This document shows, one piece after another, positions 17,857-60,678 of a DNA stretch of 64,000 nt. Under the pieces are notes generated by a model. It did no database searches and was not told where the DNA came from. It worked only from the letters and a program-made list of their open reading frames with translations. Position numbers and translations under genes: made by a program. The stretch is from assembly GCA_030698625.1 (NCBI GenBank), contig JAUYMS010000030.1:84016-148015 (forward strand), given 5' to 3'. The DNA comes from Candidatus Omnitrophota bacterium (GTDB lineage: Bacteria > Omnitrophota > Omnitrophia > Omnitrophales > Aquincolibacteriaceae). Numbering within the stretch: the stretch's first letter is position 1; each line of letters starts with the position of its first letter.

Positions 17857-18200
17857 CGCGCTGCGAGGTGAAAACAAGGCTGTCCGAAACGCTACGGATT
17901 TCTCGGCCTATCCTGCTCATCAAAGTCTTGCCGAAAACCGGTGACTTTGATATTCGCCGATACGGCCAGAGAAATTCTCCGCATGTTTCTGACAGCCTTG
18001 TTTTCACCTCGTTAGCCTGGGGCGCTTGAGGCAAAAGGAAGGACGGGCAGGGAATACTCCGGAAAAACAATTGGCGCTGTTTGCGGAGACGAGGTGATGA
18101 ATTTTTGGGGCGGTAGTCCCAAAAATTAACTCCGAGCGCAGCAGCGCGTTTTGGAGGAGTGTTTCCTGGCCGTTCTTCCTTGGTGTTTTGGGCCGAGTGC
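17857..18200. repeat. palindromic repeat element, copy 1 (A and B hairpins)
   Basis: A non-coding element filling most of the 512-bp gap before queF. Palindrome A spans 17864-18011: its outer 27 bp pair with one mismatch, a weaker middle follows, and ATCAAAGTC/GACTTTGAT closes the centre. Palindrome B spans 18038-18179 with arms around GGAAGGACGG and a centre AATTTTTGGGG / CCCAAAAATT. A degenerate A half-arm (18186-18200) follows and runs into the queF promoter. Related copies lie at 28866-29388 (opposite orientation) and 60324-60678. No transposase is present. Confidence 0.85.
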
Positions 18201-18215
18201 AGGGCATGATATAAT
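18188..18215 (+). promoter_or_regulatory. extended -10 promoter of queF, near-leaderless
   Basis: TGaTATAAT (18207-18215) is a perfect extended -10, with a weak TTGGGC (18188-18193) 16 bp upstream. The -10 ends 8 nt before ATG 18224, so transcription would begin about 2 nt before the start codon. No Shine-Dalgarno sequence fits. Confidence 0.6.
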
Positions 18216-18223
18216 GCGCGCCT

Positions 18224-18616
18224 ATGGCGAGCCGACCCTCAAAGAAACTGGACGTATTCAAAAATCCGTATGCAAAGCGTGATTATGATATCCGCTTTGA
18301 ATGCCCGGAGTTTACGTGCCTTTGCCCTCGCACCGGACAACCCGATTTCGCCACCATCCGAATCTGCTATGTCCCCGATAAGTTATGCGTTGAGTTAAAG
18401 AGCCTTAAGCTTTATCTCTGGAGTTACCGCAACGAGGGGGCTTTCCATGAGGCTGTGACCAACAAGATTCTTGACGACCTTGTCCGGGCCACGCGGCCGA
18501 GGGAAATGACCGTAGAAGGGGATTTTTATGTGCGCGGAGGCATTCACACTGTCGTTAAGGCCGAGCATCAAAAGTCGCGGGGATCTAAGCGGTTGCTCAA
18601 AAGACGCCGTGGCTGA
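18224..18616 (+). CDS. queF: NADPH-dependent preQ0 reductase
   Basis: Reduces the nitrile of 7-cyano-7-deazaguanine to preQ1 for queuosine synthesis. The 130-residue protein is of the short, unimodular type. The active-site motif [13 protein letters not shown] holds the nucleophilic Cys34 and Asp41, and [20 protein letters not shown] is the substrate and NADPH-binding segment. No other queuosine genes are in the window. It stands directly after repeat copy 1 and has its own promoter with almost no leader. Confidence 0.95.
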
Positions 18617-18623
18617 TCGTAGT

Positions 18624-19169
18624 GTGCCGTGGCCGGTATGGACGGCGCTTACGGTTTTCCTGATCTTTGGATGTGCCGATGACTTGTCGGCCGCATACAG
18701 ACCCGGGACTTGTCGCGAGGCGCTAAAACAAAAATCCTCATCAGGTATTGCACGCAGTGCGAAAGAGGACTCGTTCGGTAAGGTCAATCTCCAGCCGCCC
18801 TATGGATCGTTTCCTGCCGACGTGGACAAGATTACGTGGTGGAGCAAATACAAGAGGCGCTTCAAGGAATGGGGCCACCCTGATCTCGAGGCTGCATGGA
18901 TCAATCCCAAAGGCGAAGAAGTGGCAAGGCGGAAATTTCGCGGCGAAAAATGCCGGCTCGCAGAGACATCCATCAGAGGAGAAGACCAACCGGACGGCCG
19001 TTTTGTTGACGGTGTATGGGTTGTTGAAGTCTCGTGCGGCAGTGCCGTTCTGGACCGGCAGAGTTTTGTAGTGCATGGCCTGACGAAGACGCTGCGGGGG
19101 ACGGATGCTCCCGGGTCTGACGATTCGGAACCGGCCACGATATGGGCTCGAGATGCCTTAAATGAATAG
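18624..19169 (+). CDS. hypothetical exported protein
   Basis: About 181 residues from GTG 18624, 8 bp after queF; GTG 18609 is another possible start. A short hydrophobic segment (WTALTVFLIFGCA) ends in Cys and could be a signal peptide or lipoprotein signal, though the lipobox is imperfect. The mature part has paired Trp (ITWWSKYKRRF) and a beta-rich stretch (VDGVWVVEVSCG, RQSFVVHG) that may be an Ig-like fold. I do not recognise the family. It overlaps the deacylase gene by 8 bp and is probably cotranscribed with it. Confidence 0.6.
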   Translation: MPWPVWTALTVFLIFGCADDLSAAYRPGTCREALKQKSSSGIARSAKEDSFGKVNLQPPYGSFPADVDKITWWSKYKRRFKEWGHPDLEAAWINPKGEEVARRKFRGEKCRLAETSIRGEDQPDGRFVDGVWVVEVSCGSAVLDRQSFVVHGLTKTLRGTDAPGSDDSEPATIWARDALNE

Positions 19170-20814
19170 ACGTATCCTGCCACTGATTTTTTTCTGCCTG
19201 ATTTCCCTCACGAGCGGCATGAGCCGCCTCTCGGCCGAAGGGCCCGAATTCGATTACCTCATTGACAACGCCATGATTTATGACGGCCAGTCCAATCGAG
19301 CCATGGAGGGGTCTATTGCTATTGCCAACGACAGGATTGTCGGTGTCGGGGTCTATGAAGACAATCAGGCCCGGGAAATAATTGATGCCGAAGGGCTTGT
19401 CGCAGCGCCGGGATTTATTGATGCCCACACGCATTCAGATTTTAACCCGATCGTTTATCCGAATCTGCCCAACAAACTCATGCAGGGAGTGACGACAGAA
19501 ATCGTCGGGAACTGCGGGATGTCGGCTGCCCCCATCGCCGGTCCGCACGTAGAGCACATCGCGGGTATCTGGGCGCGCGAAGGAGTTATCTTGCCTGAAG
19601 CGCGCGATTGGCCTGAATATCGGGATTATCAGCATGCACTTGAACGAAAGGGGCTGACTACAAACATGGCCGCTCTTGTAGGGCACGGCAATTTGCGTTC
19701 GGCGGTTCTTGGTTTTGCGTCCAGAGCGGCAAATGCGGACGAACTGGGCCGAATGAAGGAAATGCTGGCGACGGCCATGCATGACGGAGCGTTCGGTGTT
19801 TCATTCGGCCTGGTTTATATGCCGGGTGTTTTCGCCAATGAAGAGGAAATCACAGAGCTTTGCAAAACGGCGGCTCAATATGACCGTATCTGCGCGTTTC
19901 ACATGCGCAGTGAAAGTTCGAACCTTGTCGAGGCCGTCAGAGAAGTCATTAGCGTGGCTCAAAAGACCGGTGCCAGGATTCAGATCTCCCACCTGAAGGC
20001 GGCCGGAAAATCCAACTGGGGAAAAATTCACGAGGTCTTCGAACTCATTGAAGGTGCCCGAGAAGAGGGACTTAAAATCTACGCGGACGTCTATCCGTAT
20101 GAGGCCAGTTTTGCGGAGTTGGGGGTGCAGTTGCCCGATGATTTATACGAAACGGAGTTTCGCGTCGCAATTCTGCGCGATCCTTCGCGCCGGGAAGCCT
20201 TGCTCGAAAGGCTGAGAGCCTATTATAAGGATAAAGATTGGAATGCCGTGAGGATCGCCTCCGTTGAACATGTCGATTACCAGGGAATGGCCGGTAAGGC
20301 TTTGCAGCAGGCTGCCGAGGAAAAGGGTAAGGACCCCGTGACATTCCTTGTCGATCTTCTTGCGGACACTGCCTTTGAGGTCAGTGCCTTTTCCTTTTCT
20401 CAGTCGACGCGTGTCGTTGGAAACGTCTTGTCGAAACCCTATGTCCTAGTGGGATCCGACAGCATCGCCGACGACAGCCGGTTTCCGCACCCCCGTGCCT
20501 ATGGGACTTTTCCCGTTGCGTTTGCTATGCTCACTCAGGCTAGCGATCCCCGTGAAATAGGAGATTCTATTGCCCGGTTGACGTCTCGCCCGGCGGAACA
20601 TTTCGGCCTTGCTATGCGCGGCCGTATTGCGCCCGGTTATCATGCTGATTTGATTCTTTTTGATCCCGCACGGTTTAGGGCACGAGCCAGTTACACGGAG
20701 CCCAAGGTTCTAAGTCAAGGTGTGGCGTGGGTTTTTGTCAACGGCGAGGCGGTTGTGCGCGAAGGCCGTTACGACGGGGCCAAGAAGGGGCATTTCCTGT
20801 CTCGCGGTGCCTAA
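19162..20814 (+). CDS. N-acyl-D-amino-acid deacylase (amidohydrolase), exported
   Basis: Metal-dependent amidohydrolase of 550 residues, probably periplasmic because of the N-terminal signal peptide (LPLIFFCLISLTSGMSRLSA). Metal and substrate motifs of the D-aminoacylase family are present: GFIDAHTHSDFNP (about 93-105), the metal-bridging Cys in EIVGNCGMS, HMRSESS, QISHLKAAGKSNWG and the catalytic Asp in VGSDSIADD. The C-terminal beta domain with YHADLILFDPARF is typical. Likely acts on N-acyl-D-amino acids or dipeptides, perhaps from peptidoglycan turnover; the exact substrate is open. Confidence 0.87.
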   Translation: MNRRILPLIFFCLISLTSGMSRLSAEGPEFDYLIDNAMIYDGQSNRAMEGSIAIANDRIVGVGVYEDNQAREIIDAEGLVAAPGFIDAHTHSDFNPIVYPNLPNKLMQGVTTEIVGNCGMSAAPIAGPHVEHIAGIWAREGVILPEARDWPEYRDYQHALERKGLTTNMAALVGHGNLRSAVLGFASRAANADELGRMKEMLATAMHDGAFGVSFGLVYMPGVFANEEEITELCKTAAQYDRICAFHMRSESSNLVEAVREVISVAQKTGARIQISHLKAAGKSNWGKIHEVFELIEGAREEGLKIYADVYPYEASFAELGVQLPDDLYETEFRVAILRDPSRREALLERLRAYYKDKDWNAVRIASVEHVDYQGMAGKALQQAAEEKGKDPVTFLVDLLADTAFEVSAFSFSQSTRVVGNVLSKPYVLVGSDSIADDSRFPHPRAYGTFPVAFAMLTQASDPREIGDSIARLTSRPAEHFGLAMRGRIAPGYHADLILFDPARFRARASYTEPKVLSQGVAWVFVNGEAVVREGRYDGAKKGHFLSRGA

Positions 20815-20821
20815 ATATATC

Positions 20822-20830
20822 TGCTATACT
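20822..20830 (+). promoter_or_regulatory. extended -10 upstream of tpx
   Basis: TGcTATACT at 20822-20830 lies 35 nt before the tpx ATG. No good -35 is seen, as expected for an extended -10 site. Confidence 0.5.
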
Positions 20831-20865
20831 AAAAAACCAATAAGATCGAACTTTAGGAGGTAATA

Positions 20866-21393
20866 ATGTCGGATGTAGAGAGAAAAGGTGTGATTACGTT
20901 TAAGGGGGGTCCGCTAACTTTGATAGGACCCGAGCTGAAAGTCGGAAAACCCGCTCCCGATTTTAAATTGCTTGCCAATGATCTGAGTGAGGTATCACTG
21001 GCGGCTTCGAAAGGAAAAACGCGTCTTATCAGCGTGGTCCCGTCCTTGGATACTCCGGTTTGCGACGAACAGACCAAGCGTTTTAATAAGGAAGCGGCCA
21101 AGTTGCCTGGCGGTGTTGTTGTGCTGACCGTCAGTGCGGATCTTCCCTTCGCGCAAGCGCGTTGGTGTGGTGTTGCTCAAGCCACAAAGATTCAGAGTCT
21201 TTCGGACCACCGCGATGTCGCCTTCGGCAAGGCGTACGGCGTTTTGATTAAAGAACTGAGGTTGCTTGCACGCGCTGTTTTTGTTGTCGGTCCCGATAAC
21301 AAAATTCAGTACGCGGAGTACGTCAAAGAGGTCACGCAGCATCCGAATTACGACAAGGTCCTGAGCGCTTTGGGTGTCGGCGCAAGTGTCTAG
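20866..21393 (+). CDS. tpx: thiol peroxidase
   Basis: Atypical 2-Cys peroxiredoxin reducing hydroperoxides with thioredoxin. The 175-residue protein has peroxidatic Cys66 in PSLDTPVCDEQTKRFN and resolving Cys101 in ARWCGVAQATK, about the spacing of E. coli Tpx. TAGGAGG sits 7 nt before the ATG. A monocistronic unit is likely, with its own extended -10 promoter and a stem-loop downstream. Confidence 0.95.
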   Translation: MSDVERKGVITFKGGPLTLIGPELKVGKPAPDFKLLANDLSEVSLAASKGKTRLISVVPSLDTPVCDEQTKRFNKEAAKLPGGVVVLTVSADLPFAQARWCGVAQATKIQSLSDHRDVAFGKAYGVLIKELRLLARAVFVVGPDNKIQYAEYVKEVTQHPNYDKVLSALGVGASV

Positions 21394-21410
21394 ATTCCTT
21401 TAAGCTGTTT

Positions 21411-21443
21411 CGTCCGGCGTCACGGTCCTTGTGACGCCGGACG
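21411..21443. terminator. perfect 13-bp stem-loop after tpx
   Basis: CGTCCGGCGTCAC pairs exactly with GTGACGCCGGACG around a 7-nt loop, 17 bp after the tpx stop. There is no T-run on either strand, so it may act as an mRNA 3' end stabiliser or a weak terminator. Confidence 0.55.
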
Positions 21444-21468
21444 AGACTCCTAATCACTTCGTGAAAAG

Positions 21469-22269
21469 GTGACAAATCCCCGCACAGCATTTTTGTTATT
21501 TTTCCTTTCCCCCCTGCTTAACCCCTTTGCTTTTTCTGCAGAACCTCAACTGACGGATACAATCGCCTATGATCGTGCGATTCAACTTAAAGCTGAGGGG
21601 CAGTTTCTGGAGTCTGAACGTATGTTTTATCGTGCCATTGAGCTGAAACCGGATAATCCCTATTACCATTTTGAACTCTCCAATCTTTATGCGCTGCGCT
21701 ATGACTTGTTGAAGCAGCCGTCTCTGGATGCCGACGGCAAACAGCTGATGGAATCTTCAGCCCGGGAACTGGAGCAGGCGAGTATGATGCATCCTTCATT
21801 TTTGGAAGCCCATTACAACCTGGGCGTAGTTTATCGCCGGCTCGGTGAGTTTGAAAAGGCGCGCGAAGAATTCAAACAGGTCTTGGTCTTAGACCCCACC
21901 CTGGCCGGGCCTTACATGCAAATGGGTGAGATCTATGAGACGCAGGGGTTTTTTGATGAAGCCAGAGACATGTATCTAAAGGCCCGCGACTTGGATTATC
22001 ACAATCCGGATATTCACGGTGCCATCGAGGAGCTGACGGAGCACAAAGAGATCTTTAAGCAGCGCCAACGGACTCGCGATGCGGCCTCAGACTGGGGCCG
22101 CCGTTCCCGCGGTTTTGAATACTCGCCGAACAGCCAAGCGAATCAATATGGCAACGAACAATATGGGTCCTCGTCTCAGGGGCAGAGCATCCAGGCGGCC
22201 GCGCCCTACATCGGCATGATGCTTGTGCAGGAGTTTATGCGACTGCGTGAACGGATGAAGGGGGAATAG
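21469..22269 (+). CDS. exported TPR-repeat protein
   Basis: 266 residues from GTG 21469 with a signal peptide (AFLLFFLSPLLNPFAFSA). It has at least three tetratricopeptide repeats (AIQLKAEGQFLESERMFYRA, AHYNLGVVYRRLGEFEKARE, AGPYMQMGEIYETQGFFDEA) and a Gln/Ser-rich low-complexity C-terminal region (about 205-245). Probably a periplasmic scaffold for protein interaction; no specific role can be assigned. The following HAD gene starts 2 bp after its stop. Confidence 0.75.
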   Translation: MTNPRTAFLLFFLSPLLNPFAFSAEPQLTDTIAYDRAIQLKAEGQFLESERMFYRAIELKPDNPYYHFELSNLYALRYDLLKQPSLDADGKQLMESSARELEQASMMHPSFLEAHYNLGVVYRRLGEFEKAREEFKQVLVLDPTLAGPYMQMGEIYETQGFFDEARDMYLKARDLDYHNPDIHGAIEELTEHKEIFKQRQRTRDAASDWGRRSRGFEYSPNSQANQYGNEQYGSSSQGQSIQAAAPYIGMMLVQEFMRLRERMKGE

Positions 22270-22271
22270 TT

Positions 22272-22985
22272 TTGCTCGATTCTTATGAAGCGGTGTTTTT
22301 TGATGCGGGGGGAACCTTGTTTCATCCGTATCCCTCGGTGGGCGAAATCTATCAACGGATCGCTGCTGCCTACGGCTGTAAGGCGAATGCAAATGAACTG
22401 GAAATCCGCTTTCGTGACGCGTGGCTCTCCCGAGACGGCATGACCTCTCTTGCCAGCCACGCCAGTGAGAAAGTGGAACGGGATTGGTGGCATGAACTGG
22501 TGAGTGAAGTATTTTCCGAAATCGGGGGGATCAGCGATTTCGAGGAATTCTTTACGGAGCTATATGATATTTTCGCGCATGCCGGATCCTGGCGGCTTTA
22601 TGAGGATGTCACCGAAGTGCTCGCAGATCTAAAGCGGCGCGGTAAGCGCCTGGGAATTGTCTCGAACTGGGATTCGAGGCTTTTTGGGTTATGTAAAGGA
22701 CTGGGAGTGGACGGCCATTTTGACTTTATTATTGCCTCAGCCGTCTTCGGGGCTTCCAAACCCAATCCTAAAATATTCGAAGAGGCTGTGAAACTCTCCG
22801 GGGTATCTCCGGAGCATGCCGTCCATGTGGGGGATAGCTACCAGGATGATGTCGTCGGCGCCCGTCGTGCCGGTATCGGCGCCGTCCTTATCGATCGTAG
22901 CGACGCCGGTCGCCACGATCGTCAAGAGGTTTCCCGCGATGTCCCCCTGATTCATGACCTGCGCCAACTGATTGCCCAGTCTTAA
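22272..22985 (+). CDS. HAD-superfamily hydrolase (subfamily IA)
   Basis: Predicted phosphatase of 237 residues starting at TTG 22272. The four HAD motifs are visible: AVFFDAGGTLFHP (the second Asp of the DxD motif is Gly here, as in REG-2-like members), IVSNWDS, the Lys of GASKPNPKIF and HVGDSYQDDVVGA. A cap domain lies between motifs one and two. Substrate is unknown. The TTG start has no good ribosome site, and coupling to the TPR gene just upstream is likely. Confidence 0.82.
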   Translation: MLDSYEAVFFDAGGTLFHPYPSVGEIYQRIAAAYGCKANANELEIRFRDAWLSRDGMTSLASHASEKVERDWWHELVSEVFSEIGGISDFEEFFTELYDIFAHAGSWRLYEDVTEVLADLKRRGKRLGIVSNWDSRLFGLCKGLGVDGHFDFIIASAVFGASKPNPKIFEEAVKLSGVSPEHAVHVGDSYQDDVVGARRAGIGAVLIDRSDAGRHDRQEVSRDVPLIHDLRQLIAQS

Positions 22986-22991
22986 GCCAGT

Positions 22992-23013
22992 CTTAAGCCA
23001 GCCTTAAGTTTTT
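22992..23013 (+). terminator. CTTAAG-based hairpin with T-run
   Basis: CTTAAG occurs three times at 22981, 22992 and 23003 as part of an 11-bp direct repeat that begins inside the HAD stop codon. The second and third copies can form a 6-bp stem with loop CCAGC followed directly by TTTTT, resembling a weak intrinsic terminator. Confidence 0.45.
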
Positions 23014-23078
23014 GCCTTTTTTTGCCGTATGCTTCTGCTAACGGGAATGATTATTTCTTGAAACCAAGGGAGGTGTCT

Positions 23079-23420
23079 ATGAAACGCTTATTAATTCTTG
23101 TGTTTGGTCTGATGTTAGTGCTGTCCGCACCGGTTTTTGCCGGTACGATTGAAGACAATGCGGCTTCAGCGGATTACGTGATAAAGGCGCCCGCAATGGT
23201 CCTTCGCGGCTTGGCTAATATTGCATTATCGCCAGTCGAAGTTGTCCATCATACTTACAAAGGGACGATGGACGGAGCTCCTCTAGTCGGTACCCTCGAA
23301 GGCGCGGGAACCGGCATCGTGTGGGGGCTGGACAGGGCCGGACGCGGCATTTGGGATGTGCTTACGGCGCTTTTCCCCAACTATAACGGGGCGCCGACCA
23401 CCCATGAATTAGAGATATAG
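23079..23420 (+). CDS. TIGR04073-type exosortase-associated small exported protein
   Basis: 113 residues from ATG 23079, after AGGGAGGTG. A signal peptide (LLILVFGLMLVLSAPVFA) is followed by a mature domain with RGLANIALSPVEVVHH, a GTLEGAGTGIVWGLDRAGRG block and an ending near FPNYNGAP. This pattern fits the TIGR04073 family of small proteins seen in PEP-CTERM/exosortase organisms; the biochemical role is unknown. No exosortase gene is in this window. A strong intrinsic terminator follows. See also the weaker relative at 11227. Confidence 0.72.
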   Translation: MKRLLILVFGLMLVLSAPVFAGTIEDNAASADYVIKAPAMVLRGLANIALSPVEVVHHTYKGTMDGAPLVGTLEGAGTGIVWGLDRAGRGIWDVLTALFPNYNGAPTTHELEI

Positions 23421-23448
23421 ATTTTAGTATTTAGTGAGTTATCTCCTT

Positions 23449-23481
23449 AAGGGGCAGTGCGTTAAGCACTGCCCCTTTTTT
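23449..23481 (+). terminator. intrinsic terminator
   Basis: AAGGGGCAGTGC pairs perfectly with GCACTGCCCCTT around loop GTTAA, followed by a run of Ts. It ends the TIGR04073 gene 28 bp after the stop. Confidence 0.92.
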
Positions 23482-23550
23482 GTTGAATCTACTGTGCCCT
23501 TAAGATAGACTGCTTATTCGGATATTATTCTTCTAAAAAGAGGTATCACC

Positions 23551-24366
23551 ATGACAGAGACGGCCACTATGACGGAATCCCAGCCATTCACATCTGATCT
23601 TCTTAAGGGCAAAAAAGGCCTTGTCCTGGGGGTCGCCAACAAGCGCAGTATCGCTTGGGGCATCTCGCAGGCACTCGCCAATCACGGGGCACAGCTTGCT
23701 TTTACTTATCAGGGCGAGCGCCTCAAAGACAGCGTTGAGCAGTTGACCGCAACCCTTCCGCATCCGGCACCGCTTTACGCCTGTGATGTCACCAACGACG
23801 AAGACATCCAAACCGTTTTTAAGAAGCTGGATGAAGACTTCGGGTCGATTCAATTCCTGATTCATTGCATTGCTTTTGCCAAGAAAGAGGAGCTGACGGG
23901 CCGAACGGTCGATACGTCTCGCGACGGTTTTCATCTTGCCATGGACGTAAGTGCCTACTCGCTTCTGGCTCTGACCAAAGCGGCCGAACCGCTCTTGGAA
24001 AAAGAGGGGGGAAGCGTGGTCGCGTTGACTTACCTCGGCTCTGAAAAAGTAATCCCGAATTACAATGTGATGGGGCTTGCGAAGGCCGGCTTGGAGTCGG
24101 GCATTCGCTACCTGGCTTCGGATTTGGGTAAGAAGAATATTCGTGTTAACGGCGTCTCGGCGGGGCCTGTGAGCACGCTTGCCGCGCGAGGTATTTCCGG
24201 TTTCACGACCATGCTCGAGAGCCATCGGGGTCGTGCCGCTCTCGGGCGTAATGTCGAAATCGCGGAAGTCGCGAACACGGCACTTTTTCTTGCAAGCCCG
24301 CTGTCGAGCGGCATCACAGGCGAAATCCTCTATGTTGATTGCGGCTACCGCATTATGGGAGCCTGA
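23551..24366 (+). CDS. fabI: enoyl-[acyl-carrier-protein] reductase (NADH)
   Basis: Catalyses the last reduction of fatty-acid elongation. The 271-residue short-chain dehydrogenase has the FabI-type cofactor motif GVANKRSIAWGIS, the HCIAFAKKEEL stretch and the catalytic Tyr-x6-Lys in YNVMGLAKAG, preceded by the first Tyr of LTYLGSE. Length is usual apart from an about 18-residue N-terminal extension; ATG 23569 is an alternative start. AGAGG lies 7 nt before ATG 23551. The family is the triclosan target. Confidence 0.95.
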   Translation: MTETATMTESQPFTSDLLKGKKGLVLGVANKRSIAWGISQALANHGAQLAFTYQGERLKDSVEQLTATLPHPAPLYACDVTNDEDIQTVFKKLDEDFGSIQFLIHCIAFAKKEELTGRTVDTSRDGFHLAMDVSAYSLLALTKAAEPLLEKEGGSVVALTYLGSEKVIPNYNVMGLAKAGLESGIRYLASDLGKKNIRVNGVSAGPVSTLAARGISGFTTMLESHRGRAALGRNVEIAEVANTALFLASPLSSGITGEILYVDCGYRIMGA

Positions 24367-24384
24367 TCTTTTAGATCCACTACC

Positions 24385-24993
24385 GTGAACTCGAAGAATA
24401 TCCTCGTCCTCGATCTCGAAACACAGAAATCCTTCAAGGAAGTCGGTAAGGCGAACCTTGCCAAGCTGAAGGTTTCTGTCGTTGGTGTTTATGATTACGC
24501 GATCGACGAGTACCTGATCTATGAGGAAAGGGATATTATGGCGCTTGAGAAGCGAATGCAGGACATCGATCTTCTGATAGGTTTCAACATTCGCCGCTTC
24601 GATATGCCGGTCCTGCAGCCTTATTTGTTTAAAGCGGTGGAAGAGATTCCGGTGCTGGATCTTCTGGAGGATGTCGAGAGGGAACGGGGCCATCGCGCCA
24701 GCCTAGACAGTATTGCCGGACCCACATTAAAAAAGCATAAATCCGGTCACGGTGCCGACGCCCTCATCCTGTATCAGCAAAACAAGATGGAGGAGTTGAA
24801 GCGGTATTGTCTAGATGATGTTCGCCTCACCAAAGAGGTCTACGAGTTTGGGGTTCGCGAGGGAAAGATATTCTTCACCTCAAGCTGGGACTATAAGACC
24901 TACGATATCCCAGTATCGTGGGCAAAAACGAGCGAGGAACTGATCCGGCGCTCAGACCGACGCGAATCTAGTTTTCCTTCCAGCTTATTCTAA
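24385..24993 (+). CDS. predicted DEDD 3'-5' exonuclease (RNase H fold)
   Basis: 202 residues from GTG 24385. It shows the DEDD exonuclease pattern: DLET (10-13), GFNIRRFDMP (about 71-80) and the ExoIII-like RYCLDDVRLT (about 143-152). Closest in shape to the small YprB/RNase_H_2-type exonuclease domain proteins. The C-terminal about 40 residues are basic and Ser-rich. Start choice is uncertain because no ribosome site is evident. Likely acts on nucleic acid ends; no specific pathway can be assigned. Confidence 0.7.
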   Translation: MNSKNILVLDLETQKSFKEVGKANLAKLKVSVVGVYDYAIDEYLIYEERDIMALEKRMQDIDLLIGFNIRRFDMPVLQPYLFKAVEEIPVLDLLEDVERERGHRASLDSIAGPTLKKHKSGHGADALILYQQNKMEELKRYCLDDVRLTKEVYEFGVREGKIFFTSSWDYKTYDIPVSWAKTSEELIRRSDRRESSFPSSLF

Positions 24994-28865: not shown

Positions 28866-29388
28866 ACCCGCTGATACGGCCAGGGAATACTCCTCCAAAA
28901 CGCGCTGCTGCTCGGAGTTAATTTTTGGGACTGTCGCCCCAAAAATTTATCACCTCGCCTCCGCAAACAGCGCTAATTGTTTTTCCGGAGTATTCCCTGC
29001 CCGCCCTTCGTTATGCGCCAGGCGCCCCAACAACCCGAGAGATAAAAACAAGTCTGTCAGAAACGCTCCGCAAGGACGGCCACTAAACACTCCTCCAAAA
29101 CGCGCTGCTGCGATCGGAGTTAATTTTTGGGACTGCCGCCCCCAAAATTTATCACCTCGTCTCCGCAAACAGCGCTAATTGTTTTTTCGGAGTATTCCCT
29201 GTCCGCCCTTCGTTATACTCCAAGTGCGCCAACGCCCGAGAGATGAAAGCAAGGCTGTCAGAAACATGCGGAGGATTTCTCTGGCCGTATCAGCAATTAT
29301 CAAAGTCACCGGTTTTCGGCAAGACTTTGATGGACAGGATATGCCAAGAAATCCGGAGCGTTTCGGACAGACTTGCTTTCAGCTCGCG
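28866..29388. repeat. palindromic repeat element, copy 2 (compound, inverted)
   Basis: Opposite orientation to copies 1 and 3 and more complex. An 18-bp fragment identical to the inside of palindrome A (28866-28883) runs into a B palindrome (28877-29010), then an A half-arm (29037-29066), a second B palindrome (29075-29212) and a complete A palindrome (29240-29385). In A the arms read GAAAGCAAG and CTTGCTTTC, where copy 1 has an A-T pair at the central G-C. The array fills the 573-bp gap between lptF/G and the convergent HAD gene. Confidence 0.85.
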
Positions 29389-50971: not shown

Positions 50972-50973
50972 AT

Positions 50974-51510: not shown

Positions 51511-54500
51511 TCTTACGGACACGGACGTGAAAGTGGAAGGACAGGAGGTCGAGGAGATCCGCGCTTTTATTCGGCGTAAGGTCAAGGATCTGGTTGTGCC
51601 GGCCTCGGTCTATCGCGTGCAGCTTAATAAAGACTTTGGTTTTAAGAAGGCCCGAGACCTTGTTCCCGCGCTGAGTGAAATGGGTGTGGATGCCTTGTAT
51701 TGCTCACCGTACTTTCAGGCCGAAAAGGGAAGCGCGCACGGCTACAACATCATCGATTGCAATGCGATAAATTGTGAGCTCGGATCCGAACTGGATTTTT
51801 CGAATTTCTGTGACGCCCTCAAGCGGCACGGCTTGAAGCAAATCCTGGATGTCGTCCCGAATCACATGGGGATTACGGGGGACAACAAGCTCTGGAAAGA
51901 TGTGCTCGAAAACGGACCGAGTTCGGTTTATGCCCACTTCTTTGATATCGACTGGTCCCCCATGAAAAAGGAATTGCAGGATAAAGTACTGCTGCCGATC
52001 CTGGGAGATTCTTACGGGCGCGTGCTTGAAAATCAGGAAATCAAGCTTGTCTACGATTGCGGGGAGTTTACCGTTCGGTACTGGGATCATCATCTTCCCG
52101 TTGCCCCCCGGACATACTCGTTGATTCTGGAATTTGGCCTCGAGAAATTGAAGCAGGAACTCGGCGAGGACAGCCCGGAGCTTGCGGAATATCTCAGCGT
52201 TATTACGGCTTTTCGGAATCTGCCTGCACGGACTGAAAAGAATGCCGGCCGGATCCGCGAGAGGCATAGGGAAAGAGAGGTGAGCAAAAATCGTTTGGCG
52301 GACTTGGCCAAGCGTTCGCGCGCCGTCAAAGAGTTTATCGAGTCGCGAGTTTCACTTTTTAACGGGAATAAGGGGGATGCCAGGAGCTTTGATGTGTTAG
52401 ACCAGCTCTTGGCCGAGCAGGGCTACCGCCTCGCTTTCTGGCGCGTTGCCAGCGAAGAAATAAACTACCGCAGATTTTTTGATGTCAATGATCTGGCGGC
52501 AATCTGCATCGAACATGAAGATGTATTCGAGTATCATCACAGACTTGTGTTTCGCTGGATCGCAGAGGGCAAGATACAGGGCCTGCGCGTAGACCACCCG
52601 GACGGCCTGTACGACCCGCCTGACTATTTCCGCCGGCTGCAGGAACGGTATCTTTTGGAATCCCTCTGCGAGGGGATCGAGCAGAATGATCCGAAGCGTG
52701 AGCGCTTTGCGGCAAATCTGCGCCCCGTGTTGAAAGAGGAGGAGTTCCTGACTTGCAAGCCGCTCTACGTTGTTGTCGAAAAGATCCTGGACCGGCGCGA
52801 ATCTCTGCCTGAAGACTGGAACGTGCACGGCACGGTGGGTTACGATTTTTTGAACGCCTTGAACGGCATCTTCGTGGACTCCCGTCATGAGCGGCCCTTT
52901 GACGCTATCTATGGCAAGTTTGTGGGAAGGAGACTTGACTTTGATTTTCTTGCGCATGAAAAAAAGAAGTTCTTTGCCCTTGTCCATATGGCGAGTGAAC
53001 TCAACAATCTGGGGCGGCGTCTTAACCTGATCTCCGAGAAGAACCGTCACTACCGTGATTTTACGTTAAACAGTCTGGTCGTTGCGATTCGTGAGGTTAT
53101 CGCAGCCTTTCCCGTATACCGAACTTATATTTCCCCGTTGGCGGCAGAGGTCTCAGCGCGCGACGAAAGGTATATCCGTATGGCGATTGAGAAGGCGAGG
53201 AAAAAGGCGCCGGCATTACCGAGCGCAATTTTTGAGTTTCTTCAGGATATTTTATTACTCAAAGTGATGCCGAGGATTGACCCCGAAGAAAAGATAGCCC
53301 TCCGCAATTTTATTTTGAGATTTCAGCAACTGACAGGCCCGATCACGGCCAAAGGCGTCGAAGATACGTCTTTTTATATCTACAATCGATTATTGTCTTT
53401 AAATGAAGTGGGAGGTTATCCCACTCACTTTGGGTGCACGGCCGAGGAGTTCCACCAGGAAAACATGCATCGCAATGCGCGCTGGCCGGCCGGGTTCATC
53501 ACGACATCGACGCACGATACGAAACGCAGCGAAGATGTCCGGATGAGAATCAACGTACTCAGCGAAATGCCTAAGGAGTGGGAAGAGTGCGTCCAGAAAT
53601 GGGCGGCTGAAAACGAACACCTTAAAACGAAACTGAACGAGGTCCTTCAGCCCGACCGGAACACCGAGTATTTCATTTATCAAACGCTCGTGGGTGTGTG
53701 GCCGGATGAGGAAATTGGCGAGCGGGGCGCCGCCGTTTTTGCCGAGCGCCTGTGCGCCTATTTCCAGAAGGCGAACCGCGAGGCCAAAACCGAGACAAAC
53801 TGGGTGAATCCGAATGAGGTCTATGAAAGCGCCGTTAAGAAATTTGTATGCGGCGTTCTTGAGAGGACGCCTAAGAATCGTTTCCCGCAAAGCTTTTTGG
53901 AGTTTGAAAAAAAGGTGGCTGTTTTCGGGAAATGGAATTCACTCGGGGCCCTTGTCTTGAAGTTGGGTTCCCCGGGAGTCCTGGATACCTATCAGGGAAC
54001 GGAGCTGTGGAATTATAGATTAGTGGACCCCGACAATCGTGAACCGGTTGATTTTAACCGGATTCGGAATCTTCACGCGGACGTTTTGAGCCAGACGAGC
54101 GGCGGAAAGGGCAGGGCCGTGGTGGAAACCTGGTTTCGTTCGCCCGAAGATGCGAGGATAAAGCTGGTCGTCTTTTCCGAGGGGCTGCGCCTGCGCCGCT
54201 CCCACCCCGAACTTTTTGTCGGGGGCGAGTATATCCCTCTAAAAGTGACGGGGGAGGCCGCTCGCCATGTCGTGGCTTTTTTACGCCGGTCGGGATCAAA
54301 ACTGGCTATTGCGGTGACCGGGCGATTTTATAGCCAACTGCCCTCACTCCGTGATGGTTTTCCGCTCGGCAAGAAAACTTGGGGAGATACAAAAGTGATG
54401 TTCCCTAAGGATATTGAACTGCCGCCGACTTTTCGAGACATTTTAACGCATCAAGAGATAGCTTCCGAAAAGGATTTCTTGCCTGTGGCCGGTCTATTTG

Positions 54501-54535
54501 AAAAACTACCTTTCGCCCTTCTCTTCCATGACTAG
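51503..54535 (+). CDS. treY: maltooligosyl trehalose synthase
   Basis: GH13 enzyme turning the reducing end of maltodextrins into a trehalosyl group. 1010 residues from ATG 51503 (AAAAGGAAAG upstream), longer than most TreY (700-930). Catalytic motifs: ILDVVPNHMGITGD (about 118), GLRVDHPDGLYDP (about 360), VVVEKILDRRESLPEDW (about 425) and TTSTHDTKRSEDVRMR (about 670). The extra length includes a helical insertion (about 250-300). Overlaps the unknown gene upstream and treZ downstream. Confidence 0.94.
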   Translation: MSDLTDTDVKVEGQEVEEIRAFIRRKVKDLVVPASVYRVQLNKDFGFKKARDLVPALSEMGVDALYCSPYFQAEKGSAHGYNIIDCNAINCELGSELDFSNFCDALKRHGLKQILDVVPNHMGITGDNKLWKDVLENGPSSVYAHFFDIDWSPMKKELQDKVLLPILGDSYGRVLENQEIKLVYDCGEFTVRYWDHHLPVAPRTYSLILEFGLEKLKQELGEDSPELAEYLSVITAFRNLPARTEKNAGRIRERHREREVSKNRLADLAKRSRAVKEFIESRVSLFNGNKGDARSFDVLDQLLAEQGYRLAFWRVASEEINYRRFFDVNDLAAICIEHEDVFEYHHRLVFRWIAEGKIQGLRVDHPDGLYDPPDYFRRLQERYLLESLCEGIEQNDPKRERFAANLRPVLKEEEFLTCKPLYVVVEKILDRRESLPEDWNVHGTVGYDFLNALNGIFVDSRHERPFDAIYGKFVGRRLDFDFLAHEKKKFFALVHMASELNNLGRRLNLISEKNRHYRDFTLNSLVVAIREVIAAFPVYRTYISPLAAEVSARDERYIRMAIEKARKKAPALPSAIFEFLQDILLLKVMPRIDPEEKIALRNFILRFQQLTGPITAKGVEDTSFYIYNRLLSLNEVGGYPTHFGCTAEEFHQENMHRNARWPAGFITTSTHDTKRSEDVRMRINVLSEMPKEWEECVQKWAAENEHLKTKLNEVLQPDRNTEYFIYQTLVGVWPDEEIGERGAAVFAERLCAYFQKANREAKTETNWVNPNEVYESAVKKFVCGVLERTPKNRFPQSFLEFEKKVAVFGKWNSLGALVLKLGSPGVLDTYQGTELWNYRLVDPDNREPVDFNRIRNLHADVLSQTSGGKGRAVVETWFRSPEDARIKLVVFSEGLRLRRSHPELFVGGEYIPLKVTGEAARHVVAFLRRSGSKLAIAVTGRFYSQLPSLRDGFPLGKKTWGDTKVMFPKDIELPPTFRDILTHQEIASEKDFLPVAGLFEKLPFALLFHD

Positions 54536-56354
54536 AACCGACATGTGGGAAATGCAATTCGGAGCAACGCGCGGAAATTTTTGCGTCTGGGCGCCGCGGG
54601 TATCACGGATGGATGTAAAGATTTTGAAGCACGGCGGCGTATATCCGATGAAAAGAGACGCTGAAGGTAATTTCTCCGTGTTTGTCGACAAAGCACGGCC
54701 CGGGGACCGCTATTATTATGTGATCGACGGCAACCGTGAAAGGCCGGATCCGGTCTCTGCTTTTCAGCCGGACGGTGTTCATGGCCCTTCCGAGATTGTT
54801 GATCACGCGGCCTACCGGTGGAGCGATGCGCGGTGGAAGGGATTGGGGCTCAGTGATTATATATTCTATGAATTGCATGTGGGCACGTTCACGCCCGCCG
54901 GGACCTTTGATGCGGTCATCCGGAAGCTGCCTTATCTGGGGAAATTGGGTATCACTTGTATCGAATTAATGCCCGTGGCGCAGTTTCCCGGAGCGCGGAA
55001 CTGGGGTTATGACGGCGTCGGGCTTTATGCCGTGCAGAATACTTATGGCGGACCTGACGGATTGCGCCGTCTGGTCGATGCCTGCCACCGGCAGGGGCTG
55101 GCTGTGTGTCTTGACGTTGTCTACAATCACCTCGGTCCCGAGGGCAATTATCTGCACGATTATGGTCCCTATTTCACGAACCGATATCACAATTCGTGGG
55201 GTGACGCGGTCAACTTTGACGGGGCAGACAGTGATCCAGTGCGCCGTTTCTTTATCGATAACGCCCTGTTCTGGGTGACGCACTACCATATCGATTGTCT
55301 GCGTCTTGATGCAGTACACGGAATCTACGACTTCGGCGCGACCCACATTCTGGAGGAATTGCAGCGGGCGGTGCAGGAGCAGGCGGGGCGTCTGCGGCGG
55401 AAGGTTGTTGTTGTGGCTGAGAGCGATCTGAATGACAGCCGCATCATTCGTCCCGTAAAGGCCGGAGGGTTCGGCCTGGATACCCAGTGGAGTGATGATT
55501 TCCATCATGCCGTTCATGTCACGCTAACCGGAGAAAAGAACGGTTATTACGAGGATTTTTCGGGGCTTACCGATATCGTTAAATCCCTGCGCAATGCCTT
55601 CGTCTATGACGGTCGATACTCGGTGTCCAGGGTACGAACCCACGGTAATTCAACTCACGGAATACCGGCCGAAAAGTTTGTCATCTGCACTCAGAATCAT
55701 GACCAGATAGGAAACCGTGCCTTTGGCGACCGCTTGTCGCAAACCCTCACTTTCGCGGAACAAAAAATGATAGCGGGCCTCCTGCTGTTTTCGCCGTATC
55801 TGCCGCTGCTGTTTATGGGAGAGGAGTACGGAGAGCCGGCCCCGTTTCAATATTTTGTCGATCACGGCGATAAGGATTTAGTGGAGGCGGTCAGAAACGG
55901 CAGGAAAAAGGATTTTGAAGCCTTCGGTTGGGATAAAATTCCCGACCCAAAGTCTAAAGCCACTTATGATAAGTCCAAATTGAATTGGAAGCTCGTCTCG
56001 AAGGGCCCCCATAAACATCTCCTGAATTTTTACGGTGACATGCTGGCTTTGCGGAAGAAATTCAAAATCGGTTCGAACCGGAACAGAAAGCAATTGCAGG
56101 TTGAATGTTCGGACAAAACGCAATGCCTTGCGGTAGGGTATCGGGAAGGGGCCAAGTCCGCCCCCTTCGCAATATTTTCGTTTTCGGATAAGCCGGTTAC
56201 CTTGAAATTACCGCTCGGCAGGAAGGCCTTTGATCCTGTGATCTATTCAGACGAAACGCGTTATGGAGGCAAGTCAAAAAATAAGCTAAAATGCCGTGCC
56301 GGCGAAATGACTTTGGCGCCGAAGAGTGCGGTGGTCGGCAGCGCCCGGCCTTAA
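54528..56354 (+). CDS. treZ: malto-oligosyltrehalose trehalohydrolase
   Basis: Releases trehalose from the TreY product. 608 residues from ATG 54528, overlapping the treY stop. An N-terminal CBM48-like domain (GATRGNFCVWAPRVSRMDVK) precedes the GH13 barrel with CLDVVYNHLGPEGNY, the nucleophile in LRLDAVHGIYD (about 260), acid in VVVAESDLND (about 297) and QNHDQIGNRAFGDR (about 390). A complete TreYZ pathway with treY; the debranching enzyme TreX is not in the window. Confidence 0.94.
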   Translation: MTRTDMWEMQFGATRGNFCVWAPRVSRMDVKILKHGGVYPMKRDAEGNFSVFVDKARPGDRYYYVIDGNRERPDPVSAFQPDGVHGPSEIVDHAAYRWSDARWKGLGLSDYIFYELHVGTFTPAGTFDAVIRKLPYLGKLGITCIELMPVAQFPGARNWGYDGVGLYAVQNTYGGPDGLRRLVDACHRQGLAVCLDVVYNHLGPEGNYLHDYGPYFTNRYHNSWGDAVNFDGADSDPVRRFFIDNALFWVTHYHIDCLRLDAVHGIYDFGATHILEELQRAVQEQAGRLRRKVVVVAESDLNDSRIIRPVKAGGFGLDTQWSDDFHHAVHVTLTGEKNGYYEDFSGLTDIVKSLRNAFVYDGRYSVSRVRTHGNSTHGIPAEKFVICTQNHDQIGNRAFGDRLSQTLTFAEQKMIAGLLLFSPYLPLLFMGEEYGEPAPFQYFVDHGDKDLVEAVRNGRKKDFEAFGWDKIPDPKSKATYDKSKLNWKLVSKGPHKHLLNFYGDMLALRKKFKIGSNRNRKQLQVECSDKTQCLAVGYREGAKSAPFAIFSFSDKPVTLKLPLGRKAFDPVIYSDETRYGGKSKNKLKCRAGEMTLAPKSAVVGSARP

Positions 56355-58205
56355 ATGATGAGAAAGACGGTTGCAATGAAATCGAACGGAAGCTATGAGC
56401 AGTTCACGGAGAAGGTGACGCAAAAACAATGGGATCGCATCGGTCTCGGCCGGCGGGCCGGTGTGGCCGTGCCCCTGTTCTCACTTTATTCCCGCCGCAG
56501 TGTTGGCATCGGAGAGATTCCCGATCTTAAAATCCTGGTGGATTGGTGCGTGAAAACGCAGATGAGCATCCTTCAGCTTTTGCCCATGAACGATGTCGGC
56601 TTTAACTTCCTGCCCTATGACAGCCAGAGTACGTTTGCGCTGGAACCCATGTACTTGTCTCTTGAAGAGATCCGGGGCGTCAAAGCCGCGGCCTATAAAG
56701 AGGATCTCGGGCGGCTGCACCGTGAATTTCCCACGGGGCAGGAGCGCATTAATTACGGCATTAAAGCCGCAAAGTTGGAGCTTCTGCTGCGCATGTATCA
56801 CGCCTGCGCCGCAAATTTGCCGAAGGCCTTCGAAGAGTTTGTGGAAACAACACGTTTCTGGCTGGATGATTATGCCGCCTACAAGGTGGCTAAAGAGGTC
56901 TTTAAAAATGCGGGGTGGCATGATTGGCCCGAGGCCCTTCGCAACTGTGACTCGAAAGCTGTCGAAGACTTGAGGCTGGAGAATGCGGAGGCAGTGCGCT
57001 ATCAAAAGTGGTTACAGTGGCAGCTCTATGAGCAATTTAAAGATCTGAGGAGCTATGCGGCCCGGGAAGGTGTTTTCTTTATGGGGGACATGCCGTTTCT
57101 CGTCTCCGGTGACAGTGCCGATGTTTGGGCGAATCAGGCGTACTTTAATCTCGATGCGGCTTCGGGCGCACCCCCGGACGACTCTTTTGCCGGCGGACAG
57201 CGCTGGGGAATGCCCCCCTACAACTGGCAGCGCGTTGCCGAACATGATTATGACTATCTTCGCGAGAAGCTCCGGTACGCAGAGCACTTTTACGACATGT
57301 TTCGGATCGATCATGCCGTCGGAGTCTTCCGGCTATGGACTATCCCCGGTGCGGAACCGATAGAAACGGCAGGGATAAACGGCAATTTTGAGCCCGCTGA
57401 CGAGAGTCAGTGGGAAGATCACGGGAGAAAGTTGCTGTCATTCATGATCGAGCACTCTAAAATGTTACCGTGCGCTGAGGATCTCGGCACGGTGCCGGAA
57501 TGTTCTTACCGTGTTTTGGAAGAATACGGTATTCCGGGGATAGACGTGCAGCGTTGGCTGCGCAAGTGGGGTGAGAGTTATGATTTCAAGGACCCGGCCG
57601 AATACCGGAAGAACTCGATCGTGGCTATTTCGACACACGATATGAGCCCGTTGGCGGCTTGGTGGCGGTATGAGGCCGGTACCGTGGACCGGATGATTTT
57701 CGAGCGGGCATGCGGGCGGTGCGGCATTGCTTTTGAGGACGTCCTGAGCGACCTCTTTGACACCGAGTCTTCTCATTACGGCCGGCTGCGCTGGAAGCCG
57801 GAGATGGATCATGAGGACAAACTCCTTCAGTGCGTCGGCAGTTCCAAAGAAGGCGCCGGGATCGTGCTGGATCTCTATCGGGGGTCCTTCGACGAGAAAC
57901 AGAAATTTCTTCATTACATAGGACTCAATGACGAAAATGAAGATGGATGGTCGAACGAGCTTGCCCGTGCTGCCCTGAAAAGGGCGAGTGAAGCAGCTTC
58001 AGTATTCTGTATTCAGCTGTTGCAGGATTGGCTTGTTCTCGATAACGTATTTGAGGGTGATCCCTGGAAGTGGCGTGTTAACATTCCCGCGACTCTCGGC
58101 CCCGACAACTGGTCGATCGTGATGCCCTTTGCTTTGGACGACCTAGCGGGTTTTAAGGCCACGCGGGAAATTCGAAGAATTCACGAAGAGACCGACAGGC
58201 ATTGA
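56355..58205 (+). CDS. malQ: 4-alpha-glucanotransferase
   Basis: GH77 amylomaltase, 616 residues, immediately after treZ (ATG 56355; ATG 56376 is an alternative). Motifs: RRSVGIGEIPDLKILVDWCV, SFAGGQRWGMPPYNW, nucleophile in MFRIDHAVGVFRLW (about 320), acid in CAEDLGTVPE (about 374) and ISTHDMSPLAAWW (about 428). It reshuffles short glucans and so feeds TreY with chains of suitable length. Confidence 0.93.
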   Translation: MMRKTVAMKSNGSYEQFTEKVTQKQWDRIGLGRRAGVAVPLFSLYSRRSVGIGEIPDLKILVDWCVKTQMSILQLLPMNDVGFNFLPYDSQSTFALEPMYLSLEEIRGVKAAAYKEDLGRLHREFPTGQERINYGIKAAKLELLLRMYHACAANLPKAFEEFVETTRFWLDDYAAYKVAKEVFKNAGWHDWPEALRNCDSKAVEDLRLENAEAVRYQKWLQWQLYEQFKDLRSYAAREGVFFMGDMPFLVSGDSADVWANQAYFNLDAASGAPPDDSFAGGQRWGMPPYNWQRVAEHDYDYLREKLRYAEHFYDMFRIDHAVGVFRLWTIPGAEPIETAGINGNFEPADESQWEDHGRKLLSFMIEHSKMLPCAEDLGTVPECSYRVLEEYGIPGIDVQRWLRKWGESYDFKDPAEYRKNSIVAISTHDMSPLAAWWRYEAGTVDRMIFERACGRCGIAFEDVLSDLFDTESSHYGRLRWKPEMDHEDKLLQCVGSSKEGAGIVLDLYRGSFDEKQKFLHYIGLNDENEDGWSNELARAALKRASEAASVFCIQLLQDWLVLDNVFEGDPWKWRVNIPATLGPDNWSIVMPFALDDLAGFKATREIRRIHEETDRH

Positions 58206-58206
58206 T

Positions 58207-59178
58207 ATGATTGATTCGATACGCATACTCCTCAGATCTCGCGACCCAGCCTTGCGGAAAAACCTCACCGGATGGTTTTCCGGCGAGGAGTACCAATGGA
58301 CTGAGGTGTCCACGGGGGATGAGATGAAACGCGCTCTCAAGGAGCGATTTTATCACGTTATTATCATCGACGCGGAGGCGGTGCCTGAGGGCGTGGAAGG
58401 ATGTGCCCGGAACCTTGAAGAATCTTATAAGGAGACGCCGGCGATAGTCGTCGCTCCGTCAGGAGTTGTAACAGAAAGCACTTTCGAGTCCCTTGCCGCG
58501 AGTTCGTTTTCATTCTTAGAAAAGCCCCTTAAGGAGGGCCCGGCCCGTGTCTGTATTGCCCAGGCGATACGGACTCAGAAACTCGTGTCCGAGAATCGTA
58601 AGATCCGTATGCAGCTCGAAGAGTTGAGTCTCAAGGATCCTTTTACTGAGACCTATAATGCGCACTATCTGGCCGAACGCTTGCCTGCAGAATTTAAGAG
58701 GGCAGAAAGATACGTTTACCCCTTGTCCCTGCTATTAATGGAAGTCTCTTCTATCAAGGAGCTGAGCAGGTCTCACAGCCGGGCTTTCTCGAACCGGATT
58801 CTGCGGGAGTTCTCGGGGTTTCTCATCCGCTTTGCGCGTGCTAACGACGTGATCATTCGCACCGGAGACGAAGAGTTTCTGGCGCTTCTTCCGGACACTC
58901 AGAAAAAGGGGGCGGTTGTCTTCGGGCTTAGGTTGCGGGATGCCGTCAAGGGTACGGCCTTTGCGGCCGACGGCGAGCAAATCAAGCTGAGCATAAGTCT
59001 CGGTTTGGCGAATTTTCCGGAGGACGGTGTTAAGAACGAAGCCAATCTCCTCGACTTGGCGCATCGGGCATTACATAAAGCTAAGGACGCGGGCGAGAAT
59101 GAACTGTTTGCGTTTAAGGGGATCTCCAAGGAAGACATTGCGAGTATCGTTAAACGGGTCGAGAAGGAGGAGCCATAG
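58207..59178 (+). CDS. response regulator with diverged GGDEF domain
   Basis: 323 residues: an N-terminal receiver (HVIIIDAEAVPEG, Asp about 52; conserved Lys in FLEKPLKEG), a short coiled linker and a GGDEF domain (LSLKDPFTETYNAHYLAERL onward). The signature is RTGDEEFLALLP, so the motif reads GDEEF rather than GGDEF, and the I-site is not clear. Diguanylate cyclase activity is doubtful; a GTP- or c-di-GMP-sensing role is possible. It lies 1 bp after malQ. Confidence 0.82.
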   Translation: MIDSIRILLRSRDPALRKNLTGWFSGEEYQWTEVSTGDEMKRALKERFYHVIIIDAEAVPEGVEGCARNLEESYKETPAIVVAPSGVVTESTFESLAASSFSFLEKPLKEGPARVCIAQAIRTQKLVSENRKIRMQLEELSLKDPFTETYNAHYLAERLPAEFKRAERYVYPLSLLLMEVSSIKELSRSHSRAFSNRILREFSGFLIRFARANDVIIRTGDEEFLALLPDTQKKGAVVFGLRLRDAVKGTAFAADGEQIKLSISLGLANFPEDGVKNEANLLDLAHRALHKAKDAGENELFAFKGISKEDIASIVKRVEKEEP

Positions 59179-59841
59179 GTGAATAAACGTTATCTTATCG
59201 GCGGCGCACTCGTCGTTCTTACTATAGTAGGCGTGGTCCTCTTCCTTAAGAAGCAGCCCGCGATGGAGGCGATCGCCGGTGCGAATTATTCGGCGGCGAA
59301 ATCCATCGGCCGCCAGGGTGCCCTCATTCATATGCTGGAATTCAGCGATTTTCAGTGCCCCGCCTGCCGTGCCGCGCAGCCGACCGTCAAAGAAGCCGTT
59401 CGGCTGTATGGAAACGATATGCGGGTGGATTTTCGCCATTATCCGCTGAGCGGACACAAATGGTCGGCGCTTGCACATCAGTCTGCCGAGTGTGCCGCGA
59501 AGCAATACCGTTTCTGGGGCTATCATGACCGTCTCTTCGATGATCAAGCGCTCTGGTCTAAGTCAGACGACCCGACGGCGATATTCCTGGGTTACGCCAA
59601 AGCCATGGGCTTGGATCTCGAAGGTTTTGCTCAGTGTCTGGCCGATGAGACCGTACGCGATAGCATTCTGGAGGAAAAAGCGCAGGGCAATGACCTGAAG
59701 GTAAGTTCGACGCCGACCTTCTTCGTCAATGGCGAGCGCTTTGTGGGCCATATTGAGCTTAAAGAAAAGGGGATGCCCTTTATTCGAAAGAAACTGGGAT
59801 TGCCTGATCTGAAACCGGAAGAAAGCGTTGCCGCGAATTAA
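59179..59841 (+). CDS. DsbA-like periplasmic thiol oxidoreductase
   Basis: 220 residues from GTG 59179, with AAGGAGG upstream. An N-terminal anchor (LIGGALVVLTIVGVVLFL) holds a DsbA/BdbD-like thioredoxin domain outside the membrane. Active site FSDFQCPACRAAQP (CPAC, about 57-60), cis-Pro loop SSTPTFFVNGERFVG. Likely forms or isomerises disulfides in exported proteins. It overlaps the MauE-like gene by 14 bp. Confidence 0.9.
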   Translation: MNKRYLIGGALVVLTIVGVVLFLKKQPAMEAIAGANYSAAKSIGRQGALIHMLEFSDFQCPACRAAQPTVKEAVRLYGNDMRVDFRHYPLSGHKWSALAHQSAECAAKQYRFWGYHDRLFDDQALWSKSDDPTAIFLGYAKAMGLDLEGFAQCLADETVRDSILEEKAQGNDLKVSSTPTFFVNGERFVGHIELKEKGMPFIRKKLGLPDLKPEESVAAN

Positions 59842-60316
59842 ATTCTTTTTTATCCTTAGCCGGAACGCCCCTTTTCTTTGGTTCCTGGCGCGCGTGTTTG
59901 TCGGGTTAGTTTACGCTTACGCGGGTTTTTCTAAACTCATGGAGCCGGTAGAGAATTTTCGCGGAGCGATCACGCAGTTCGAAGTTCTCCCCATGCCGAT
60001 CATTCCGATGGTGGCGCATGTCCTGCCGTGGGTGGAGCTCATTGTCGGGATTTTTCTCATCCTGGGTTATGCGCCGCGCTTGAGTGCCGCCGGCCTGGCC
60101 GTGCTCTCCGGTATGTTTTTGGTCGTGCTTGGAACGAGCAAGTTCGTCGTCGGTTCTTTTGGGCTTACCTGCGGTTGCTTCGGTGAGCGCGGCATTCAAC
60201 TTAGTTTTACCCAGATCTTTCTGCTCGATATCTTCGATTTCTGCCTAGCCTGGGGCATCTACCGCCGCAAGGACCATCTGTGGAGTCTGGGTGGTCTCCT
60301 CGGTCGCGCCCGCTAA
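59828..60316 (+). CDS. MauE/DoxX-like membrane protein
   Basis: 162 residues from TTG 59828, four transmembrane helices. The conserved FVGLVYAYAGFSKLMEPVENF start and the paired-Cys LTCGCFGE near the third helix match the MauE family. Such proteins are paired with periplasmic thioredoxin-like partners and are thought to pass redox equivalents across the membrane, in the way VKOR or DsbB does. The overlap with the DsbA-like gene supports that. Repeat copy 3 begins 7 bp after its stop. Confidence 0.85.
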   Translation: MPRIKFFFILSRNAPFLWFLARVFVGLVYAYAGFSKLMEPVENFRGAITQFEVLPMPIIPMVAHVLPWVELIVGIFLILGYAPRLSAAGLAVLSGMFLVVLGTSKFVVGSFGLTCGCFGERGIQLSFTQIFLLDIFDFCLAWGIYRRKDHLWSLGGLLGRAR

Positions 60317-60323
60317 CGGCGCG

Positions 60324-60678
60324 CGAGGCGAAAACCAGGCTGTCGGAAACGCTTCGGATTTCTTGGCCTATCCTGCCCATCAAAGTCTTGCTGAAAACCG
60401 GTGACTTTGATACCCGCTGATACGGCCAGAGAACTCCTCTGCATGTTTCTGACAGCCTGGTTTTCACCTCTCGGGCATGCGATGCTTGGGGCAAGAGACA
60501 GGACGGACAGGGAATACTCCGGAAAAACAATCAGCGCTTCTTGCGGAGACGAGGTGATAAATTTTTGGGGCGACAGTCCCAAAAATTAACTCCGAGCGCA
60601 GCAGCGCGTTTTGGAGGAGTGTTTCCTGGCCGTGCTTCGTTGGCGTTTCGGACCGACTTGTTTTCATCTCGCAGCGCG
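60324..60678. repeat. palindromic repeat element, copy 3 (most complete)
   Basis: Palindrome A at 60324-60471 and palindrome B at 60497-60640, followed by an A half-arm at 60645-60678 that is 31 of 34 identical, in inverted orientation, to the left end of copy 1 (17857-17890). The element therefore has inverted ends. Arms of A read AAAACCAGG and CCTGGTTTT where copy 1 has AAAACAAGG and CCTTGTTTT, a paired change. It starts 7 bp after the mauE-like stop. Confidence 0.87.

Follow-up and report, generated by a model that had tools for sequence, protein, structure and literature searches.

A lineage-restricted family of mosaic palindromic elements in an Omnitrophota genome with paired base changes in its hairpin arms

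Three copies of a palindromic element located in a 64,000-nucleotide stretch of DNA from a Candidatus Omnitrophota bacterium (hereafter the window) are members of a new family of mosaic palindromic, MITE/BIME-like repeats that is restricted to one lineage. The paired base changes in palindrome A, one of the two hairpin-forming units of the element, are genuine. We consider it probable that the elements are lineage-specific, non-autonomous mobile palindromes of the MITE/BIME-like kind and that the arms of A are kept complementary mainly via template switching. Paired base changes are usually read as strong evidence for a functional RNA. Here, a third homologous arm serves as a built-in control and, together with an inverted spacer, suggests that covariation can come from DNA replication alone, a reason for care when RNAs in repeats are inferred from covariation. 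As far as we found in the literature, these are the first MITE/BIME-like palindromes described from Omnitrophota.

Results

The window is part of contig C48 of a host genome of 3.52 Mb (50 contigs, 95%-complete). RuvB encoded in the window shares 72-79% identity with several Candidatus Omnitrophota genomes, which makes the host an Omnitrophota MAG. All three copies of the element given in the preliminary description, each built of a palindrome A (148 bp) and a palindrome B (about 139 bp), were recovered. Copy 1 lies on the plus strand and consists of an A unit at 17864-18011 (148 bp; arms 17864-17884 and 17991-18011), a B unit at 18039-18177 (139 bp) and a decayed third arm (a<) at 18178-18200, which was identified by eye through comparison with the a< arms elsewhere in the family. 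Copy 3, also on the plus strand, carries its A unit at 60324-60471, its B unit at 60499-60637 and a third arm at 60651-60670 that is homologous to the A arms and lacks the column-13 change common to both of them. Copy 2 is inverted and contains one A unit (29239-29386, minus strand) but two B units on the same strand, the first at 29072-29210 and the second at 28872-29008, with the third arm (29039-29058, minus strand) situated between them. The second B unit belongs to a tandem duplication of arm, linker and B (28866-29075) with a spacing of ~200 bp. At the far end of copy 2 a b arm is fused to a fragment of the A core (GATACGGCC), which points to recombination of modules at microhomology. 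Both base pairs reported to differ between the window copies were confirmed: copy 1 has A-T at each of them, whereas copy 3 has C-G at pair 17876/17999 (alignment columns 13/137) and copy 2 has G-C at pair 17874/18001 (columns 11/139). These pairs had been called adjacent, but pair 17875/18000 intervenes; it changed from C-G to G-C in the genomic copy C50a. Genomic copies are labelled by contig (e.g. C50a, C43b), and W1, W2 and W3 denote window copies 1, 2 and 3.

Searches of the host genome with DNA and covariance models placed the family at ~24 loci, including the three window copies; the absence of further copies, which the preliminary description had named as counterevidence, thus does not hold. 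These loci comprise 18 complete A units and ~15 B units that are complete or nearly so, with fragments besides. Since contigs C8, C13, C28, C37 and C43 end within the repeat, the real copy number is probably above this figure. Among 57 other genomes of the phylum, a set of relatives without members of the same genus, there was neither a convincing DNA match nor a match to the A covariance model. A 26-base match in a genome of the same class (G047) apparently falls within coding sequence and looks like chance. In a 384-genome sample of the phylum only the window's own genome matched, a weak comparison in which just two candidates per genome were scored. The exact A core was absent from 85,000 species genomes, and no copy was found in phages and plasmids. 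Viral 17-mer matches were rejected as homologues because the palindrome does not continue, and the B pattern had no viral matches.

When the arms were parsed across all loci and their flanks, the canonical order of modules was a> b> [a> A a<] linker [b> B b<] a<. Within this first composite family, C21, C41 and C48b all follow the order a> b> [A] linker [B] a<, and their a-b arms at both ends form terminal inverted repeats. Around the hairpin cores A and B the arm modules (a ~20-30 bp, b ~25 bp) occur repeatedly, both directly oriented and inverted, and the left arm of A has two inverse partners, the right arm of the same unit and the a< arm at the end of the element; the b arm behaves likewise. 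Full copies span ~420-535 bp and the family overall ~150-530 bp, with tandem, truncated and rearranged variants such as W2 described above and C26a, in which a b arm replaces the A core. In the B unit of C26c (L073:2556-2697) the apical hairpin is wholly exchanged for another perfect hairpin (CCATGCACTTTCGTTGAAAGTGCATGG). No target duplication was detected in 14 copies of the first composite family, the longest flank match averaging 4.4 bp compared to 4.6 bp in mismatched controls. Palindromes of the form GGGACAGTCCC...CCAGGG adjoin two copies (L077 and L074 flanks) and are perhaps another dispersed repeat.

Four A units (C43a, C43b, C50a and C50b) have flanks unlike those of the first composite family. 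Two copies of a second composite palindrome, which carries an A unit, were delimited (L081:2459-2952 and L085:2484-2860, ends approximate). The one that contains C43b is ~490 bp long, has terminal inverted repeats that measure 76 bp, match at 89% and have the tip TGGGTG, and is flanked by the 7-bp target duplication TTAGCGG, while the C50a composite has the TGGGTG tip as well and a 7-bp target duplication CAGCGAA. Terminal inverted repeats of 76 bp combined with 7-bp target duplications are the anatomy of a MITE. The 95%-complete genome contained no transposase with the element's ends and no solo b arms; b arms and TGGGTG ends were confined to the loci of the family, and no autonomous partner was found. 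Two Y1_Tnp genes are present in the host genome, neither of them inside an A/B locus, and the flanking repeat of the inspected one (L125) differs from A and B; a RAYT-mobilised REP was rejected as a description of the element, this gene carrying its own, different repeat. That repeat, AACATGTCTTTAAGTCGAGACTTGACCCC, is inverted on both sides of the Y1_Tnp (RAYT-like) gene G000:C33:42703 (L125, ~1372-1406 and ~2437-2466), and the two likely represent a REP/RAYT pair in Omnitrophota. A single copy of AACATGTCTTTAAGTCGAGACTTGACCCC occurs in the window (60698-60726), beside element copy 3.

The elements are intergenic, often situated beyond stop codons, and contain no gene. At the 18 loci for which both neighbours are known, the flanking genes were convergent in eight, tandem in nine and divergent in one, compared to seven convergent, 43 tandem and seven divergent among the 57 gene pairs of the window. 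The difference in convergent placement (8/18 vs 7/57, Fisher p = 0.006, from crude gene calls and hand classification) fits insertions tolerated where promoters are spared. ORFs over A in C43a, C50a and C13b are apparently upstream extensions of the next gene, and a protein-coding repeat (RPE-like insertion in genes) was rejected. The same applies to an intrinsic terminator or promoter element, for which no signal beyond shuffles was obtained. Against Rfam, the window at gathering scores yielded one tRNA only, and five loci gave no match up to E = 0.5.

Folding of both units is far stronger than chance would give: of six strands tested as RNA, the B minus strand had a z-score of -5.5 and the other five had scores of -9 to -13. 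In A, 12 of 55 pairs (29 cells) were changed on both sides, compared to 4.8 +/- 1.3 and 7.1 +/- 2.1 in shuffles (0/500) and to 2-6 pairs when partners were slid as a control. The signal in B was weaker (4 pairs vs 1.0 in shuffles, 3/500). Covariation in A is almost wholly confined to the outer arms, the inner helices being nearly invariant. The independent drift of arms that the preliminary description had named as counterevidence applies in part: the outermost six columns (2-7) mostly drift, whereas columns 8-21 co-vary, with 1.28 own-arm mismatches per 14 columns compared to 3.32 when each arm is matched with one from another copy (permutation p < 5e-5).

The A shuffles leave the relatedness between copies in place and the A tree is poorly resolved, so weight was put on single-copy changes and close pairs. 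C50b and C43b show two interior differences and two fully compensated pairs, while C43b and C50a show five interior differences and three compensated pairs (columns 10, 12 and 17), without one-sided change in columns 8-21. Double changes found in a single copy were those in C50a (columns 10 and 12), C50b (column 14), C43b (column 17) and W3 (column 13). The double changes include transversions (C-G to G-C, A-T to C-G) and runs of neighbouring pairs, and G-U accounted for only 2 of 36 derived states in the outer A arms on the plus strand. Between copies, 305 differences were one-sided and 293 both-sided, with a divergence of 0.22 in the arms vs 0.10 in the interior.

Comparison with the third homologous arm gave summed mismatches of 15 for A-left/A-right, 26 for A-left/a' and 27 for A-right/a'. 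In all comparable units, with the exception of C26c, the A arms were closer to each other than to the third arm. Changes common to both A arms only were present in W3 (column 13), W2 (column 11) and C48b (columns 13 and 16). The A spacer of C50c has been flipped with respect to the linker and left flank of that copy.

Discussion

The preliminary description had offered selection on the hairpin and conversion between its arms side by side. Arm-to-arm copying is favoured over selection by the different state of the third arm, by double transversions and neighbouring runs with few G-U pairs, and by the flipped spacer of C50c. Template switching between the arms of inverted repeats yields both arm homogenisation and spacer inversion (PMC8604942), and it has been proposed as the origin of compensatory changes in RNA hairpins (PMC8794818). 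The copies, whose number, dispersal and mosaic structure were observed directly, would have been spread by a putative transposase acting in trans. Imperfect inverted repeats would then be mended from each other by template switching in replication (quasipalindrome correction), a process by which a mutation in one arm would be carried over to its partner and the spacer would occasionally be flipped. Exonucleases I and VII are known to suppress quasipalindrome mutation. Because the arms are twice as divergent as the interior, arm correction alone is insufficient and either a constraint on the interior or faster mutation of the arms is needed; the conserved A interior may reflect some sequence constraint, perhaps as the place where the mobilising enzyme binds.

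A possible but rather unlikely alternative is that the A hairpin is selected as a structure, as single-stranded DNA read by an HUH-type or other recombinase in the manner of REPINs or IS200/IS605 ends, with the recognition site in the interior and the arm sequence free as long as pairing is kept. An interior that is conserved between arms that vary and yet pair would be expected from this, as would the strong folding of both strands; the genome has two Y1_Tnp genes, REPINs have been reported with compensatory changes, and the first composite family lacks target duplications, as an HUH-type mechanism predicts. However, the inspected Y1_Tnp gene is flanked by a repeat other than A or B, double transversions and neighbouring runs occur without intermediates, and about half of the between-copy differences are one-sided, which indicates that pairing is not strictly needed. 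It is unlikely, too, that A is a structure-recognised mobile module in the two composite elements, with a recombinase reading the conserved interior and selection asking only that the fast-changing arms pair; if true, such a module would turn the pattern of REPINs and MITEs around. The notion that the elements encode a structured RNA (a small RNA, 3'-UTR stabiliser or terminator), with A and B as selected RNA stems, appears improbable. Many copies do lie directly after stop codons, and the plus strand of B keeps G-U pairs (12 wobble states vs 2 on the other strand, p = 0.013), a bias that falls to 8 vs 2 (p = 0.11) when only derived states are counted. The bias in the outer arms of A is opposite (2 vs 10), however, and since the two point to opposite strands they are a poor fit to one structured RNA, which we regard as unlikely. 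Further points against it are copies in either orientation relative to neighbouring genes, promoters not above chance and terminators no commoner than in shuffles, the absence of an Rfam match, and an apical region with a one-base deletion and other small indels. Very improbable is a mosaic of inherited repeats whose covariation goes back to common descent of a small number of arm alleles that recombination moved between copies, without ongoing correction. The double changes at columns 18 and 20 are common to C41, C48b and C50c, which also share a linker, and the retained relatedness in the shuffles and the poorly resolved tree leave room for such ancestry, but several double changes are confined to one copy (C50a, C50b, C43b, W3) and slid partners reduce the 12 pairs to 2-6.

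The elements resemble several known systems, and the earlier statement that no named family has this form holds for the sequence only, the kind being well known from MITEs, BIMEs, REPINs and ERIC-like dispersed palindromes. Like the bacterial MITEs Correia, ERIC, Chunjie and QMITE (PMC10969869), the element is short, gene-free and intergenic, has terminal inverted repeats, folds into stem-loops and occurs in size and truncation variants, and two copies of the second family have target duplications of 7 bp; full copies also lie within the MITE size limit (no gene, < ~600 bp). It differs from them in that no parental insertion sequence was found, the first composite family is without target duplications, variation lies in the arms and conservation in the interior, and each element contains several nested palindromes. 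Like BIMEs it is intergenic and a mosaic whose palindromic units alternate in orientation, but its units measure 139-148 bp in ~20 copies, compared to 20-40 bp for REP sequences (PMC3733652) present in > 100 copies. A survey of 40 bacterial genomes by Cozzuto et al. 2008 found 67 of 92 stem-loop repeat families to be new (PMC2267715); compared by description, these too are intergenic repeat families with a common secondary structure. REPINs resemble the element as dispersed, mobile hairpins, and compensatory changes affecting both sides are reported for them as well (PMC3116915), so the compensatory pattern is not unprecedented. In REPINs, however, it is the spacer that varies between conserved ends, the opposite of the divergence found here (arms 0.22 vs interior 0.10), and the element differs from REP-RAYT systems in having no RAYT link, the inspected Y1_Tnp gene being flanked by a different repeat. 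What is unusual in this family is the combination of variable paired ends around a conserved interior with a third arm that serves as a control.
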